IMG/VR virus record: IMGVR_UViG_3300032246_000596
Coordinates: 1-33,850 of that record
From: a virus
Direction: 5' to 3' (one strand)
Length of the DNA stretch: 33,850 nt
Positions 7,425 to 22,602 of the stretch are shown piece by piece. A model generated the notes under the pieces. The model was not told the DNA's origin, did not search any database, and worked only from the letters and a program-made list of their open reading frames with translations. Each line of letters starts with the position of its first letter. Position 1 is the first letter of the stretch. A program made the translations under genes and the position numbers.

Positions 7425-7478
7425 TCAAATTTGAATGAATGCCCGCGCCATCCACTCGGACAGCGCGGGACTATTCAT
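7425..7478 (-). CDS. 17-codon mini-ORF after the coat gene
   Basis: A short frame (MNSPALSEWMARAFIQI) begins 14 bp after the coat stop and ends 5 bp before the next start at 7419. The strong hairpin 7442-7469 lies wholly inside it. It may be a coupling mini-cistron that lets ribosomes travel from coat to connector through the hairpin. It could also be chance, since no conservation can be tested here. Confidence 0.25.
   Translation of the reverse strand: MNSPALSEWMARAFIQI
7442..7469 (-). terminator. Hairpin after coat gene, plus adjacent palindrome
   Basis: Minus-strand RNA can form a 12-bp stem (outer CCCGCGC / GCGCGGG, perfect; inner part with G-U pairs) closed by a four-base loop. No U-run follows, so it is not a standard intrinsic terminator. 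An mRNA 3' stabiliser or partial terminator after the highly expressed coat gene is more likely. A perfect 14-bp palindrome, ATTCAAATTTGAAT, follows at 7423-7436, just before the next start codon. Confidence 0.5.
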
Positions 7479-7491
7479 GATGAGCAACCAA

Positions 7492-8664
7492 TTAACCCAG
7501 AAGAGTAGCAACAAACTCTGGCTTCCACACTTTCCAAGCGTAGAAGCAAGTGATGTCAAACATGACCTTGCCATAACCGCGATAGAGTGCGATTTCAAAG
7601 GACATACCGGACTTTTCGTCATACATGGTCATGCGATCCACAGCAGCATCACCACCGTATGGCTGAGCAGGCGGACGCATGACAAGCTCGACGGCGGACT
7701 TGTGGAAGCCAAGGTTGCCGGTGTAGTTTGCAGCGAGCGAGAGAGCGCGAGCGGTAGCTCCGGTGGCTTTCTGGAGGCCTGGAGCGTTAAGAACGAGCGT
7801 TGCAGCGGTCGAGGCATCGGCCACTCCAGTCTTGACGACATAGACGTTTCCGGTGTCGTTGGCGATGCTGAGAGCATCACCTGCAACGATGGTTCCAGTT
7901 CCAACCGATGCGGTAAGCGTGATGCTCGTTGCACCGAGGGCGAAGCCAGCGGCAGCGGAAGTTGGCGAGCTGGCAAGCGTTCCCTTGGTGTGAGCGGCGA
8001 CACCGGCAGATTCCTTGATGGAGAATCCAAAGATGTTACCGAGTTCACCATTGCGGAGCAAGTTAGGTCCACCAGCTTCGTTGACCTTGTAGAGGTTTGT
8101 GAGCTTGCGGAATCCAGCACCGGCGGTCGTGTCAATGACGCAGGAGACATCGCTGTCAAGCGGTGCGCCGTTGTCAGTGAGGATCTTGCGAAGATCAGCG
8201 AGCGGATTGATGTTGGTGGCAAACGGACTAGTTCCAGCGGTGCCAGTGGCGCGGCTCGATCCGTTTTTGATGGCAATACCACCATCAGCTTCGATTGCGT
8301 TGCGGATCTTCCGAAATGCTTGAGCGAACATCTGCAACCGGGCGTATTCGCCACCGGCCGTGTTGTCGAGTTGGCGCTGCTGTTCGCCGGTCAACGGGAT
8401 CTGAACGTTTGCCACCTTGTCGATGGTCATCGTTTCGTTGTTGAGCGTCTGAGCGTCACCGTCAGGGATGGTCATCGCTGGGGTGTAACTGGTGTTCAGC
8501 GTAGGCTGGCCAGTGCGGAGCGAGTTGACAGTGCCGCCGATGGAGACGCCTTCGCTGCCTCCGTTGACGATTACGGACTGCATAAAGCCAGTCGGTTCAG
8601 CGGCGATAAGATCGCGGGCCTGATAGATTTGCTCGGTGAGCGAGGAGATGGTGAGATTAGCCAT
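7492..8664 (-). CDS. Major capsid protein, P22 coat-like
   Basis: The 390-residue protein lies directly after the protease/scaffold gene, the standard coat position. It resembles the P22 gp5 coat group: an early strand pair around TVNSLRTGQP, then TMTIDKVANVQIPLTGEQQRQLD near residue 80, a long helix with YARLQMFAQAFRKIRNAIEAD, and a C-terminal FHKSAVELVMRP ... GMSFEIALYRGYGKV ... FYAWKVW block. A Thr/Ala-rich beta insertion at about residues 220-310 could be an I-domain-like accessory module. Its leader is A/C-rich and lacks a Shine-Dalgarno sequence despite the expected high expression. The coat call is strong; the P22 link is moderate. Confidence 0.75.
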   Translation of the reverse strand: MANLTISSLTEQIYQARDLIAAEPTGFMQSVIVNGGSEGVSIGGTVNSLRTGQPTLNTSYTPAMTIPDGDAQTLNNETMTIDKVANVQIPLTGEQQRQLDNTAGGEYARLQMFAQAFRKIRNAIEADGGIAIKNGSSRATGTAGTSPFATNINPLADLRKILTDNGAPLDSDVSCVIDTTAGAGFRKLTNLYKVNEAGGPNLLRNGELGNIFGFSIKESAGVAAHTKGTLASSPTSAAAGFALGATSITLTASVGTGTIVAGDALSIANDTGNVYVVKTGVADASTAATLVLNAPGLQKATGATARALSLAANYTGNLGFHKSAVELVMRPPAQPYGGDAAVDRMTMYDEKSGMSFEIALYRGYGKVMFDITCFYAWKVWKPEFVATLLG

Positions 8665-8706
8665 GATGTTTTAGATGTGAGTGTTTTTAGTGTTGGTGAA
8701 AATGTT

Positions 8707-9744
8707 TCAATCCTTGATGATTTTTCCACCGGCGCGCATGTAGTTGTTGCGGTCGGTAGGGTCCATTGCGTCAAATTCAGCGCGGGAAATTGGATCAGGG
8801 ATTCCGCTTCCTTTCATGCTAGGTTGAACGCTTTTGCTAGTTGCGACTTCCTTGCCTGGCAATGCTGCAAGCGCGGCCTTGGTCGATTCTGGATCAATCG
8901 CAAGCGACTTGAGCCAGAAGCTCTTTGTAGCTTCATCCTGCGAAGGAATTGCGCCTCGATTGATAGCGGCTTGAATGAGTTCAGCGTTTGCGGCCTTGAC
9001 CACTTCAGCTTCCTTGGCTTCAAGTGCGACCTTGGCAGCGGTAACTGTTTCAAGTTCGCCAGTCAAACGAGTGACTTCGGCGTTTGCGGCGTTGATAGCT
9101 TCCGTGGCGGATGCGGCGGATGCGGTAACGCTTTCGGCGGTGCTTGCAGATTCGCGGAGAGAAGCAAGAGCAACCTTTGCGGCAGCAACCGCTTCCTCGG
9201 CGGTTTGATTGGATTCGGCCAAGCCAAGCTCGGCGAGAGTTTCGGTGATTTCCATGTTGGTTTCAGTGTGAGATGCGGCGATGCGCTCGATTGATCGAAA
9301 AGCAGGATCGTTGACGAATGATCCGATTTCCCCGTTGGCGGCGAGACCAATCGGAATTCCGTCGCGCATCAGATAGGATGGCGACCAGTAAGAGTAATTG
9401 CGGCCCTCAATAGCGGCTTGACCGGCTTGAGTAAGTTCGCCCTCAAGAATAAGTCCGACGCCTTGTTCGTAACGGTAGCCTGTTGGGATCATGCTTGCTG
9501 GACCTGCTTTGTGGTCGAAGCCAGCAAATGGGCGGACATTCTCAGAAAGCCGCTTAGTGAGGTCAGCTTGAAAGGACGATAAGACACGCTCGTCGACTGT
9601 GACAGTGCGCTTTTGAGCCTTACCGTTAACAGTAGCCTCAATCTGGTGCGTTCCTTCGGGTAAATAGACAATCGCAAAGCCATTCGATCCGGTAGCGGTA
9701 AGCTCCGATCCGAAAGCAGCTTGGACTGTCTCAGTTCCCGTCAT
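8707..9744 (-). CDS. Prohead protease with C-terminal scaffold (Mu gpI-like)
   Basis: Residues from about 70 to 140 match the Mu protease I pattern: FDHKAGPAS, then GLILEGELTQAGQAAIEGRNYSYWSP, corresponding to the family's 'WTp.G.eai..geYrylSPvf' block. After residue 165 the chain becomes an Ala/Glu-rich coiled coil (to about 265), the expected scaffold. An internal Met (MEITETLAELG) marks where a scaffold-only product could start, as known for Mu gpZ; no clear ribosome site precedes it. I choose the ATG at 9744 over the in-frame TTG at 9750. The gene matures the prohead formed by the downstream coat protein. Confidence 0.8.
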   Translation of the reverse strand: MTGTETVQAAFGSELTATGSNGFAIVYLPEGTHQIEATVNGKAQKRTVTVDERVLSSFQADLTKRLSENVRPFAGFDHKAGPASMIPTGYRYEQGVGLILEGELTQAGQAAIEGRNYSYWSPSYLMRDGIPIGLAANGEIGSFVNDPAFRSIERIAASHTETNMEITETLAELGLAESNQTAEEAVAAAKVALASLRESASTAESVTASAASATEAINAANAEVTRLTGELETVTAAKVALEAKEAEVVKAANAELIQAAINRGAIPSQDEATKSFWLKSLAIDPESTKAALAALPGKEVATSKSVQPSMKGSGIPDPISRAEFDAMDPTDRNNYMRAGGKIIKD

Positions 9745-18434: not shown

Positions 18435-20948
18435 TCAAAGAGCGGATGCGAGATCGAACAAGGTTGGAACGCAAACCTCATTCTCGGCCATCTCGCAATA
18501 GCCGACTGCATTTTTCCAATACTCCTCATTCAGTTCGGTCATCCACCCTTGCCGCTCCATTTTGATAGCTTGGAACGGGACGCTTCCGATGCCTCCAAAC
18601 GGATCATAAACGATCTCGCCCTTGTTGCTGTAACGCGTGATCAGTCGCTTGATAATGTCGAGTTGCAATGGGCAGACGTGGTTTTCCTGATTGCGGCGTG
18701 TTTGCTCGCTGTTAAGTGTCCGCATGCGGGCGATGTCGGTCCAGATGTCCTTGTTGCGCGAGATCGCAGGGAAGAGCATGAATGACGATGGCAACTTTCC
18801 GATGCCTTCCAGCGCCTTTGCAAGTTCCGCGTGCTGATCATGGCTATATCCGCCTTGCTTGCTGTATTCGATCCAGAGCGCCTTGATTGCCTCATGGCTC
18901 ATGTGCTTCATGATCTCAGGATCAGGCAAGCGATTGCCGTTGGAGCGCCACAAGCCCGCAGCGTCAAGTTGCCAATCGGCGCGGGTGTATTCTTCTTTGG
19001 GTTTGCACACCGGCACATCCGCGTAACCGTTGGATTGATCGCTCGGTAACTTGCGAAATACCAAGACATATTCTGGCATTCCAGCACCCATCTTAGAACT
19101 GTCCTTGGCATTCTCAGACCATCCTAGGCGGTAGGTCTGATTGTTTTCGCGCACCACGTCGGTGTCGATTGTGATGCGGGCAATGAGCCTAAAGCCTGCA
19201 CTTCTGAATGCTGCTGTGGTCATGTCAGAGAACGGGTCAACCGTTGGGAATCCGTCGCCAGTCACGTTACCGAATCGGATGCGGTCCTTTACATGGATTG
19301 CCGCGATGCGACCAGGCTTTAGGACTTTCAAAAGCTGCGGACATAAGTGGTCCATCTGCTTAAAAAACTCTTCATTGTCGGAATTGTGTCCAAAGTCGTT
19401 GAAGCTGGGCGAATACTCATATTGATTCCCGAACGGAATGGACGTGCAAATCATGTCGATCTGATTGTCTTTCCAGTCCATGAGTTCCAAAGTGCAATCG
19501 TTCCTGATTGCCTTAAACATGTTGCTTTTAATTTCTGTGCGCTCGCCACCGGTGAGCATTGTTCTGATGAGTTCCATTGAGTTGTGAGTTGATAGTTTGT
19601 ATTCTTGCATGATCGCAGTCATCTTCTTTTGCAATTCCTCATGGCGTGACCACTTCGCCTTGAGTTCTTCCACGATGGCATCTTCGGATTCCATGTGGAT
19701 GATGTGGATATTTACCTGTTCCGGCTGTTGGAAACGGTGGATTCGGTGGATGGCTTGGATAAAGTCGTTGAACTTGTAACCCACGCCAAGAAAGATTGCA
19801 TCGGAACAATGCCGTTGAAAGTTACAGCCTGACCCGGCAATGATCGGCTTGGTTGCGAGAATTCGATACTCCCCACGGGAAAACCCCATGATGAGTTCCT
19901 CGCGCTTTTCCAAGTCCTGCGACCCGTAAACCGTCTTGGCTTCCGGTAGCTGTTTTTCGATAGCGTCACGTTCCGATTCAAGGTCGTGCCAAACAAGCCA
20001 GTGCCGTTCCAGTCCATTGTCGTCAATTAGCTCTTTGGCTCGCTCGATGCGCTTTTTGATCGTTGCTCGTTTGGTTTCCGCTGAATCTTTCAGACCGATT
20101 GACTGATCGTTCAAGAGCTGCGCTTGTCCCCATGAATCGACTTTTGACCATGCTTGCGTGTGATCATCTTGGAGCCGGTGCCATTGCACGTTGATTGCTG
20201 GCAGGTCATATCCGCTGTCAGAATAACCGAGGTCTGATGGCCGTTGAATAAATGCGGCCCATGATGCCAGCCAGAGCCAGAATTGCTTTTCCATGTGGGG
20301 ATAAAGCGTGAGGTTGTTGGCTTGGCTAGAATCGCGCTGAAAGAAGCGGGTAAGAGCTTCACCGGTATCCATGATGCCAAGGAAGCCTCCGTAGTGGATC
20401 AATTCTTTGTAGCGGTTAGGCGATGGCGTGGCCGTGAATACAAAGCGATACGGGACAGCCTTAAACAGCGGAAGGAACGTCTGATAGGTCTTTGAACCAA
20501 ACGAGCGCAACACGCTAGCCTCGTCCATTCCGACGCCTTGAAATCCGTTTACGTCAATCTTGCCATCTCGGACTGATTCGTAATTCGTGACGTAAATTCC
20601 AGGTTGCTCAATCTCCTCATTTCGACGGATGAACTTGAGATTCATGCCCATTGCAGGCCCATCCGATTGAGTGAACTCTTGCCTCACTCCAAGGGGACAA
20701 ATAATCAGGAATGATCCGTTGGTCCTTTCGCAAACCCACTTTGCAAGTTGCAAGTGCATGCGCGTCTTTCCAAGTCCAAAGCTGGCAAAAATCGCGCGAC
20801 GACCGCCACGGATCGCCCATTCGCAAATATCCATTTGATGAGGGAATAGCGAGTGATGACACGGCGAAGGTGGATCGAATCCGCAGACTTCCGCTTGAGG
20901 GACTTTCCCTAGTAGGAAGTCTAAGTAGTTTTGTTTTTCGGTGCTCAT
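18435..20948 (-). CDS. Helicase - DNA methyltransferase fusion
   Basis: About 837 residues from the ATG at 20948. The N-terminal half is an SF2 helicase: Walker A ASFGLGKT (55-62), DEAS as motif II, FTATPSPN as motif III, and QAIHRIHRFQQ as motif VI. The C-terminal half is an amino-methyltransferase (N4-cytosine or N6-adenine): TSIPFGNQYEYSPSFND as motif IV and DPFGGIGS near the C-terminus as the SAM-binding motif I, so the order is beta-class. The combination is known in phages; it probably modifies phage DNA against host restriction while translocating. The open frame extends to a TTG at 21005, but that lies inside a hairpin. Confidence 0.85.
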   Translation of the reverse strand: MSTEKQNYLDFLLGKVPQAEVCGFDPPSPCHHSLFPHQMDICEWAIRGGRRAIFASFGLGKTRMHLQLAKWVCERTNGSFLIICPLGVRQEFTQSDGPAMGMNLKFIRRNEEIEQPGIYVTNYESVRDGKIDVNGFQGVGMDEASVLRSFGSKTYQTFLPLFKAVPYRFVFTATPSPNRYKELIHYGGFLGIMDTGEALTRFFQRDSSQANNLTLYPHMEKQFWLWLASWAAFIQRPSDLGYSDSGYDLPAINVQWHRLQDDHTQAWSKVDSWGQAQLLNDQSIGLKDSAETKRATIKKRIERAKELIDDNGLERHWLVWHDLESERDAIEKQLPEAKTVYGSQDLEKREELIMGFSRGEYRILATKPIIAGSGCNFQRHCSDAIFLGVGYKFNDFIQAIHRIHRFQQPEQVNIHIIHMESEDAIVEELKAKWSRHEELQKKMTAIMQEYKLSTHNSMELIRTMLTGGERTEIKSNMFKAIRNDCTLELMDWKDNQIDMICTSIPFGNQYEYSPSFNDFGHNSDNEEFFKQMDHLCPQLLKVLKPGRIAAIHVKDRIRFGNVTGDGFPTVDPFSDMTTAAFRSAGFRLIARITIDTDVVRENNQTYRLGWSENAKDSSKMGAGMPEYVLVFRKLPSDQSNGYADVPVCKPKEEYTRADWQLDAAGLWRSNGNRLPDPEIMKHMSHEAIKALWIEYSKQGGYSHDQHAELAKALEGIGKLPSSFMLFPAISRNKDIWTDIARMRTLNSEQTRRNQENHVCPLQLDIIKRLITRYSNKGEIVYDPFGGIGSVPFQAIKMERQGWMTELNEEYWKNAVGYCEMAENEVCVPTLFDLASAL

Positions 20949-21040
20949 ATTTTTATGCAAAAGAAGGCCCGCCTGAAGTCGTCCCCTGCCGAACGAATCC
21001 GGCAAGCATCAGGCGGGCAAAGTTGATTGTTGGTTGTCAT
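20945..21040 (-). CDS. 31-codon leader ORF coupled to helicase/methyltransferase
   Basis: An ATG at 21040 after an A/C-rich stretch opens a 31-codon frame (MTTNNQLCPPDACR...) that runs right through the hairpin 20967-21018. It ends in TGA, overlapping the helicase/methyltransferase ATG at 20948 as ATGA. Translating ribosomes would melt the hairpin, so this is a plausible leader peptide for attenuation or coupling. The start and function are unproven. Confidence 0.35.
   Translation of the reverse strand: MTTNNQLCPPDACRIRSAGDDFRRAFFCIKI
20967..21018 (-). terminator. Hairpin before helicase/methyltransferase
   Basis: A perfect 10-bp stem, GCCCGCCTGA with TCAGGCGGGC, encloses a second 5-bp stem (TGCCG/CGGCA). 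On the minus strand it is followed by CCTTCTTTTGC, a modest U-rich run, and the gene start comes 18 bp later. The form is that of a weak intrinsic terminator or attenuator between ssb and the fusion gene. Confidence 0.55.
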
Positions 21041-21462: not shown

Positions 21463-22602
21463 TTATCTTAAGAGATTCCATGCGAGTTGAGCCACTGCTG
21501 GAACTTGGCCGTTGCCGATGCAGCGCAGTCGGTCCACCCGAGCGGCCACCCCATGAGCCACTCGACCCACGTCGGGTTCAGTTGCCCACCAATCTGGTCG
21601 TTCAGATTGCGCGTCCGCTCCGGGTTGTCCCATCGACTCTGTTGCCCCGTGCGGAAGTCCCTGGCTTGGGGTGTGGCAAACTGAGTAGGGGTCGCTGTCC
21701 CATTCGTCGATTTCTGGACAAGGACACTCTCCAGTGTGCATTTCATGGAGGTTGCACCACCAATCATCGCAACACTCGCAGGGTGCCCACGGAGGTCGGG
21801 ATACGCCACCGCATTGGCTAGTTGATCCATGTGCTTCCGGCCCGTGCCGTTCGTCTCGCAATGCTCCCGTGAGTTCGATCCTTTGCAGTCCCTCGCCGCA
21901 GGCGTCGGCCAGATCAGAGACTTCTTCACCTCTTCGGCAAGAATCTTTCCGCCTTTCCCGTTCGGGCGGCTTCCCGGATTCCCTGCCCGTGGCGTCGGCC
22001 ATGTCGCTATTGTCGCTTTTTTGATTTGGTTTGTGACTTGTCCCGGTCGGACTTGATCGGATAGGTATATCTGGCTGCAACACCCTGTGTTTTTCCAGTC
22101 GTGTGCCGTTGGAGTGCGCCACAATCCAGATTCTGTCTCGTTTGTGAGGAGCGGCGACGTGATGCGCTCCCACAATGCCCCACTCCGCATCATACCCCAT
22201 TTCGGCAAGGTCACCGAGGACCACGGTAAGACCTCTTCCCACAAGCATTGGTGAGTTTTCCACGAAGACGAATTGCGGCAATATTTCACCGATAATTCGC
22301 GCCATGTGCTTCCACATACCGCTTCGATCGCCTTCGATTCCGGCGCCTTTTCCTGCGGCTGAGATGTCCTGACAGGGGAAGCCTCCAGACACCACATCAA
22401 CACGGCCTCGCCATGGTCGTCCGTCGAAGTTTTGTATATCATCCCAGATCGGGAAGGCTTCAAGACAGCCGTCGTTTTGTCGGGCGACCAGAACATCCCG
22501 TGCGTAGGCGTCCCATTCGACGGCACAGACGGTTCTCCATCCAAGGAGTTTTCCGCCGAGTATTCCGCCACCAGCGCCCGCGAAAAGTGCCAGCTCATTC
22601 AT
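21463..22602 (-). CDS. dcm: DNA (cytosine-5) methyltransferase
   Basis: The 379-residue protein carries the C5-methyltransferase motifs: LFAGAGGGILGG (I), GGFPCQDIS with the catalytic Cys (IV), FVFVENSP (VI), a QRDRIW-like HKRDRIWIV (VIII) and GVAARVDRLRCIGNGQVP (X). The variable target-recognition part between VIII and X contains repeated (M/L)ADA-G phrases usual in phage members. It likely protects phage DNA. A second frame covers almost the whole gene (see 21468-22598). Duplicated sequences at both borders suggest the gene was inserted between the RuvC-like gene and ssb. Confidence 0.9.
   Translation of the reverse strand: MNELALFAGAGGGILGGKLLGWRTVCAVEWDAYARDVLVARQNDGCLEAFPIWDDIQNFDGRPWRGRVDVVSGGFPCQDISAAGKGAGIEGDRSGMWKHMARIIGEILPQFVFVENSPMLVGRGLTVVLGDLAEMGYDAEWGIVGAHHVAAPHKRDRIWIVAHSNGTRLEKHRVLQPDIPIRSSPTGTSHKPNQKSDNSDMADATGRESGKPPERERRKDSCRRGEEVSDLADACGEGLQRIELTGALRDERHGPEAHGSTSQCGGVSRPPWAPCECCDDWWCNLHEMHTGECPCPEIDEWDSDPYSVCHTPSQGLPHGATESMGQPGADAQSERPDWWATEPDVGRVAHGVAARVDRLRCIGNGQVPAVAQLAWNLLR
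21468..22598 (-). CDS. Overlapping reading frame of the WPTP / LNPTWVEWLMGWP type
   Basis: A 376-codon frame without stops runs through the methyltransferase gene in another phase, starting 4 bp after its start codon. Its product has WRTPTAHDWKNTG, WPTPRAGNPGSRPNGKGG and WPTPAARDCKGSN repeats, a GGQLNPTWVEWLMGWPLGWTD block and a final KFQQWLNSHG. From memory this combination belongs to a phage protein family often annotated near C5 methyltransferases, which argues that it is selected and not a shadow. Each WPTP corresponds to an (M/L)ADA in the other frame. Whether it is translated, and from which Met, is unknown. Confidence 0.45.
   Translation of the reverse strand: MSWHFSRALVAEYSAENSLDGEPSVPSNGTPTHGMFWSPDKTTAVLKPSRSGMIYKTSTDDHGEAVLMWCLEASPVRTSQPQEKAPESKAIEAVCGSTWRELSVKYCRNSSSWKTHQCLWEEVLPWSSVTLPKWGMMRSGALWERITSPLLTNETESGLWRTPTAHDWKNTGCCSQIYLSDQVRPGQVTNQIKKATIATWPTPRAGNPGSRPNGKGGKILAEEVKKSLIWPTPAARDCKGSNSREHCETNGTGRKHMDQLANAVAYPDLRGHPASVAMIGGATSMKCTLESVLVQKSTNGTATPTQFATPQARDFRTGQQSRWDNPERTRNLNDQIGGQLNPTWVEWLMGWPLGWTDCAASATAKFQQWLNSHGIS

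Follow-up and report, generated by a model that had tools for sequence, protein, structure and literature searches.

One stretch of phage DNA carries two almost completely superimposed genes, here called M and W, which we consider likely to encode the two subunits (large and small domain) of a single cytosine-5 (C5) DNA methyltransferase in two reading frames of the same DNA. The overlap between them is not due to chance. The window (the whole stretch of DNA analysed, 33,850 bases of an IMG/VR record) also carries phage head, portal, helicase and RecT genes. A first-pass annotation of this DNA had reported two fully overlapping frames of 379 and 376 codons with starts 4 nt and ends 5 nt apart; both were found as described, on the minus strand (Table 1). 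M and W are thus co-extensive, with the W ATG lying 4 nt inside M. The proposed correspondence between WPTP in one frame and MADA or LADA in the other was also confirmed, and WRTP corresponds to VAHS.

Table 1. Coordinates in the window of the M/W gene pair and its features.
Feature	Positions	Strand	Remarks
M: cytosine-5 DNA methyltransferase, proposed large-domain subunit (motifs I–VIII and X)	21463..22602	-	379 aa
W: proposed small-domain subunit (variable region and motif IX)	21468..22598	-	376 aa, +1 frame
ATGAATG: M and W start codons, 4 nt apart	22596..22602	-	
M motif IV GGFPCQDIS, with the catalytic cysteine	22360..22386	-	invariant columns in homolog alignments A2 and A4
M motif X helix (RVDRLRCIGNGQVPAVAQLAW...), over the last part of W	21466..21549	-	pLDDT 79–94 after a disordered stretch; conserved GNGQV
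W core, residues 96–161 (CGxxW...SWKT...LPxWGMMRxG), over M motifs VI–VIII	22116..22313	-	frame also open in numerous fused and split relatives
W motif IX block GGQLNPTWVEWLMGWPLGWTDC (residues 338–359)	21522..21587	-	homology by hhalign
Segment shaped mainly by M: catalytic domain, M residues 1–165	22108..22602	-	M third positions most variable
Segment shaped mainly by W: PTP-repeat variable region	21594..22121	-	variation at W third positions
M Gly136 codon GGG, fixing W Gly135	22195..22197	-	110/110 viral and 74/74 genome loci

Near the M/W gene, positions 18435–21005 (minus strand) encode an 856 aa protein that combines a SNF2-like helicase part with an N4/N6 DNA methyltransferase domain. 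Elsewhere in the window, a 619-codon ORF (7435–9294, plus strand) lies antisense to the gene of the major head protein (7492–8664, minus strand), extends beyond it and has no match in PHROGs.

Protein Families and Predicted Structures

M is identified as a C5 cytosine DNA methyltransferase by motifs I and IV (FPCQ) and by its large-domain fold. It matches phrog_363 (E = 4.8e-65) and PF00145 (E = 1.6e-33), the latter match covering only profile positions 5–204 of 324. The AlphaFold2 model is confident at residues 1 to ~170 and at 352–377, the motif X helix, with pLDDT values mostly of 80–95 over residues 1–165 and mostly below 55 in the middle region. Between ~180 and ~350, that is, between motifs VIII and X, M is predicted to be disordered. 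Comparison of the model with the M.HhaI fold matched ~170 residues (E = 1.2e-13).

W belongs to a phage protein family, as had been suspected from its repeats: it matches phrog_1008 (E = 4.7e-27), as do all 106 W proteins tested, and searches by sequence against Pfam, NCBIfam and PDB chains gave no match. As to the additional suggestion that the family occurs away from any overlap, no W was confirmed without an overlapping or fused methyltransferase; at four loci M was undetected. Within the W core, Gly96, Pro132 and Gly135 are invariant and Trp113, Thr115 and Trp134 nearly so. The AlphaFold2 model of W is poor (mean pLDDT 54), with strands predicted at low confidence at residues 104–107, 112–115, 135–138 and 141–144 and a better predicted helix (342–349) in the LNPTWVEWLMGWP block.

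The same LNPTWVEWLMGWP block aligns with the motif IX–X region of methyltransferases whose C-terminal half is split off or fused (hhalign 96.9%, E = 2.8e-10), and that region in turn aligns with motifs IX–X of ordinary C5 methyltransferases (93.0%, E = 3.5e-7). Direct comparison of motif IX from type A W proteins with ordinary methyltransferases was not significant (2% probability), so the homology link runs through the split and fused relatives. Searched against PDB, the motif IX–X profile retrieved C5 methyltransferases only, with weak scores (best E = 0.11). W is thus no unrelated second product; most likely it supplies the small domain (motif IX and variable region), M and W being the halves of one methyltransferase.

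Conservation of the Open Frames and Start Codons

When the codons of the window M were shuffled synonymously, a mean of 5.0 stops appeared in the W frame, and the probability of obtaining none was 0.0009. Shuffling of W introduced a mean of 10.6 stops into the M frame, and not one of 5,000 shuffles was stop-free. In viral homologs, which were chosen for having both M and W profile hits, a single W-frame stop was counted in the first 165 codons against 304 expected (119 genes), and no M-frame stop in the middle region against 293 expected (92 genes).

The least biased set consists of 80 bacterial-genome loci, many probably of prophage origin, retrieved with the M profile only; removal of near-duplicates left 75 for stop counting. 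Their catalytic domains contain no W-frame stops (179 expected), the opposite of the frequent second-frame stops that the first-pass annotation had named as evidence against its reading. In 77 of the 80 bacterial-genome loci, motif IX is read in the +1 frame and motif X in that of M, frame 0. Searches with W and searches with M both return loci bearing the M/W pair, and a W-frame ORF spanning most of the W profile was seen at 79 of 80 loci found by M alone.

Stops are present in other methyltransferases. Eleven single-frame chromosomal enzymes from similar genomes have 42 stops in the +1 frame (44 expected), fused relatives have 77 in the W frame (110 expected; 48 versus 49 in the first half) and split relatives 184 (238 expected). 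A W frame that is open throughout is therefore special to the clade of the window pair. More distant relatives have stops in the upstream part of the W frame, which makes full-length nesting a property of one clade. A chance ORF was also considered and was ruled out by the synonymous shuffles, the stop counts in homologs and the single-frame methyltransferase controls.

The W start codon is kept at least as well as that of M. At codon 1, W has ATG in 115 of the 119 viral loci, also where the first M codon has ceased to be a start, and in 64 of the 72 genome loci. For M, 96 of the 119 viral loci have ATG, GTG or TTG at codon 1 and the other 23 have TTA, CTA, CTC or CTT; all 23 have an M-frame start 3–14 codons upstream. 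A Shine-Dalgarno-like core, where present, is mostly found 7–9 nt before the W ATG.

Selection along the Overlap

Nucleotide alignments of homologs were analysed with a codon-position test that presumes neither frame; in the offset used, M1 = W3, M2 = W1 and M3 = W2. At 75–85% identity, the differences at M1/M2/M3 were 0.162/0.094/0.395 in the first 165 codons (the signature of M), 0.418/0.145/0.119 in the middle region (the signature of W) and 0.257/0.124/0.217 in the last 50 codons, where both frames are constrained. The genome set agrees, with 0.210/0.129/0.447, 0.498/0.171/0.130 and 0.252/0.130/0.230, respectively. Both proteins thus show protein-level selection, M over the first 165 codons, W in the middle and both at the end. 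Sliding bins revealed weak periodicity at M codons 121–140, under the W core, and W-type periodicity across the motif IX block. Judging by the codon signature and the structural model, M appears to be a passenger in the middle region, where it is predicted to be disordered.

The first-pass annotation had envisaged more than 1.1 kb of dual coding. Both frames are indeed selected, but not equally, as M dominates early and W in the middle; strong dual constraint exists mainly towards the end and at particular sites. Only weak constraint is apparent in W residues 1–95. Among the particular sites, the M codons for Val114 (GTG in 96/96 viral loci), Asn116 (AAC in 107/110) and Leu4 (G-ending in 101/110) have the forms needed for W Trp113, Thr115 and Trp3, respectively, counts which ignore the relatedness of the loci and serve as support only. 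The GGG codon of Gly136 (Table 1) is also found in the split, fused and Firmicutes sets, and other Gly codons occur only in seven single-frame chromosomal methyltransferases. A per-column synonymous-bias index is high over the catalytic domain; it is inflated by relatedness and equally high in the Firmicutes set, and was therefore used as support only.

It could be argued that W is an untranslated shadow of the conserved M sequence and its codon bias, given that the similarity to the W profile over the catalytic domain derives for the most part from M and is seen in stop-containing relatives too, and that M third positions remain the most variable ones there. We regard this as extremely improbable in view of the stop counts with their single-frame controls, the conservation of the W start and the W-frame codon signature of the middle region, which was repeated in an independent set. 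Constraint by RNA structure could slow synonymous change, but would neither remove stops nor yield W-frame periodicity.

Related Gene Architectures

In the structure of C5 methyltransferases, the large domain is built from motifs I–VIII and X, the small one from motif IX together with the target recognition domain (TRD) (PMC3404938). This known division fits the distribution of motifs over M and W and over the related architectures. At about 40 fused loci, including that of mycobacteriophage DotProduct, motifs I–VIII and a W-type motif IX are joined in one ORF. At split loci, represented by mycobacteriophages Zaka and TelAviv and likewise by Gordonia phages Upyo and Float294, the N-terminal half lies in frame 0 and the C-terminal half (motifs IX and X) in the +1 frame. 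In type B loci (L032, L059, L126 and L127), M ends right after motif VIII and motif X is found in the W frame; the motif has moved to the W side, so M and W still hold the full set. In each of these three architectures, the two frames together carry the complete motif set.

Several relatives show further peculiarities. A short +1 ORF of DotProduct (L171:2156-2536) keeps the W-like core, though the PTP repeats and motif IX are in the methyltransferase frame, and such a core in a short +1 ORF is found at many other fused loci. At L146, L157 and L087, W has an extension of ~150 aa that separates motif IX from a second motif X, and M is cut short after its EPxVG remnant.

The M frame ends exactly where W continues in type B and split loci, and the functional regions change frame near M residue 165. 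These observations would suit programmed ribosomal frameshifting, by which motifs I–VIII in frame 0 would be joined to the remainder in the +1 frame. We find such a mechanism very unlikely: it would work without a W ATG at +4 and without an upstream W frame free of stops, both of which are strictly kept, and since motif X of type A loci lies back in frame 0, a second shift would be needed. Inspection by eye showed no conserved slippery site.

A pair resembling that of the window is found in Paenibacillus phage Shelly (NC_041909.1), where a +1 ORF within the C5 methyltransferase gene (gp55), annotated as 'g55 internal gene' (L170:1616-2320), matches the W profile; it differs in that W begins at about M codon 61, with stops in frame upstream. 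Firmicutes phage methyltransferases (L401–L470, relatives of L174) are complete single-frame enzymes with motifs I–X and have a +1 ORF over codons ~50–190. We had intended them as a W-free control and dropped them because they carry this ORF of their own. Across codons 60–180 it contains no stops in 36 loci (~217 expected), and its C-terminus is conserved (SLSDILEE..EKYFLS); comparison with Pfam and NCBIfam gave no match above threshold.

A +1 ORF overlapping complete enzymes, in which M misses no motif, would also be compatible with W being a real overlapping protein but an accessory factor, e.g., one that regulates or inhibits M or some host system, and not the small domain. The W start and residues 1–95 are conserved though they contain no methyltransferase motif, and a role as small domain leaves the far-upstream start of W unexplained. 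We nevertheless judge an accessory role unlikely, because the C-terminus of W is homologous to methyltransferase motif IX, which is in the methyltransferase's own frame at ~40 loci, and because M has no region matching the motif IX part of W. The assignment of M and W to two subunits of one enzyme is accordingly retained below.

Tentatively, and with slightly more doubt than confidence, we suggest that a hidden +1 partner over the catalytic domain could be widespread across several C5 methyltransferase lineages (Proteobacterial prophages, actinophages and Firmicutes phages), complete-looking enzymes included, and have as its mark the fixed GGG codon of the LGYD motif. Full nesting, as in the window pair, would then be its extreme form.

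Proposed Enzyme and Known Two-Polypeptide Methyltransferases

For the two-subunit enzyme we envisage the following scheme. A single mRNA would be read for both proteins, M initiating at its own start codon and W, in the +1 frame, at the fixed ATG that follows 4 nt later. M would fold as the large domain, with the AdoMet site, the FPCQ cysteine, motifs I–VIII and the C-terminal motif X helix. W would contribute the small domain, comprising the beta core, the PTP-repeat variable region and motif IX, and would orient and read the DNA. Together they would form the active methyltransferase, whose probable role is to mark phage DNA. By their position, the PTP repeats may form the recognition region. 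We infer that M and W are both translated, that they form a complex in which neither is dispensable, and that their purpose is self-modification.

C5 methyltransferases made of two polypeptides are already known. In M.EcoHK31I, the frame of the beta subunit (~176 aa) lies inside the gene of the 309 aa alpha subunit, in a different phase; enzymes of this type require both polypeptides for activity and have YGGCCR specificity. The large subunit (alpha) contains motifs I–VIII and X together with the predicted TRD, and the small subunit (beta) contains motif IX (PMC3404938). The window pair resembles M.EcoHK31I (and M.EaeI) in that M has motifs I–VIII and X without motif IX, which is placed on a second polypeptide in an overlapping frame. 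Compared by description, it differs in that W is 376 aa long, co-extensive with M and begins 4 nt inside it. Another difference concerns the predicted TRD, which is placed on the large subunit of M.EcoHK31I, whereas the variable region of the window pair evolves as W and M is predicted to be disordered there. No restriction enzyme was identified near the M/W gene of the window.

In M.AquI, the large and small halves are on separate polypeptides, split within the variable region (PMC3404938). Its small subunit carries motif X as well as motif IX, unlike in the window, where motif X is on M; an M.AquI-like arrangement, with both motifs on the W side, is found in type B loci such as L032 and in actinophage loci.

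Among existing protein families, phrog_1008 (labelled DNA methyltransferase) corresponds to W and phrog_363 to M, and the PHROGs entries are silent on the two sharing DNA. A search of open-licence literature found no overlapping methyltransferase partner in phages; a description elsewhere is possible. Co-extensive nesting of two frames of ~380 codons, near-universal in a clade spanning many bacterial phyla and hiding a probable second subunit, appears to be unreported, as does the annotation error to which it leads.

Consequences for Annotation

Depending on the frame picked, several hundred phage and prophage genes are labelled either a single 'DNA cytosine methyltransferase' or a hypothetical protein unrelated to it; each such gene probably encodes both halves of the enzyme. 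A synthetic M with changed codons would destroy W and seem inactive, so that specificity screens would be misled. Natural dual coding of this kind, extending beyond 1.1 kb with the selected region passing from one frame to the other, is also unusual, and the split and fused relatives allow tracing of how the nesting arose.

In Pseudomonas phage phPA-G and Vibrio phage 1.291.O, W is annotated and M is not, the reverse of most other phages. At L179:2001-2699 and L162:2501-3229, the annotated CDS is the W frame, and the open methyltransferase frame is unannotated.
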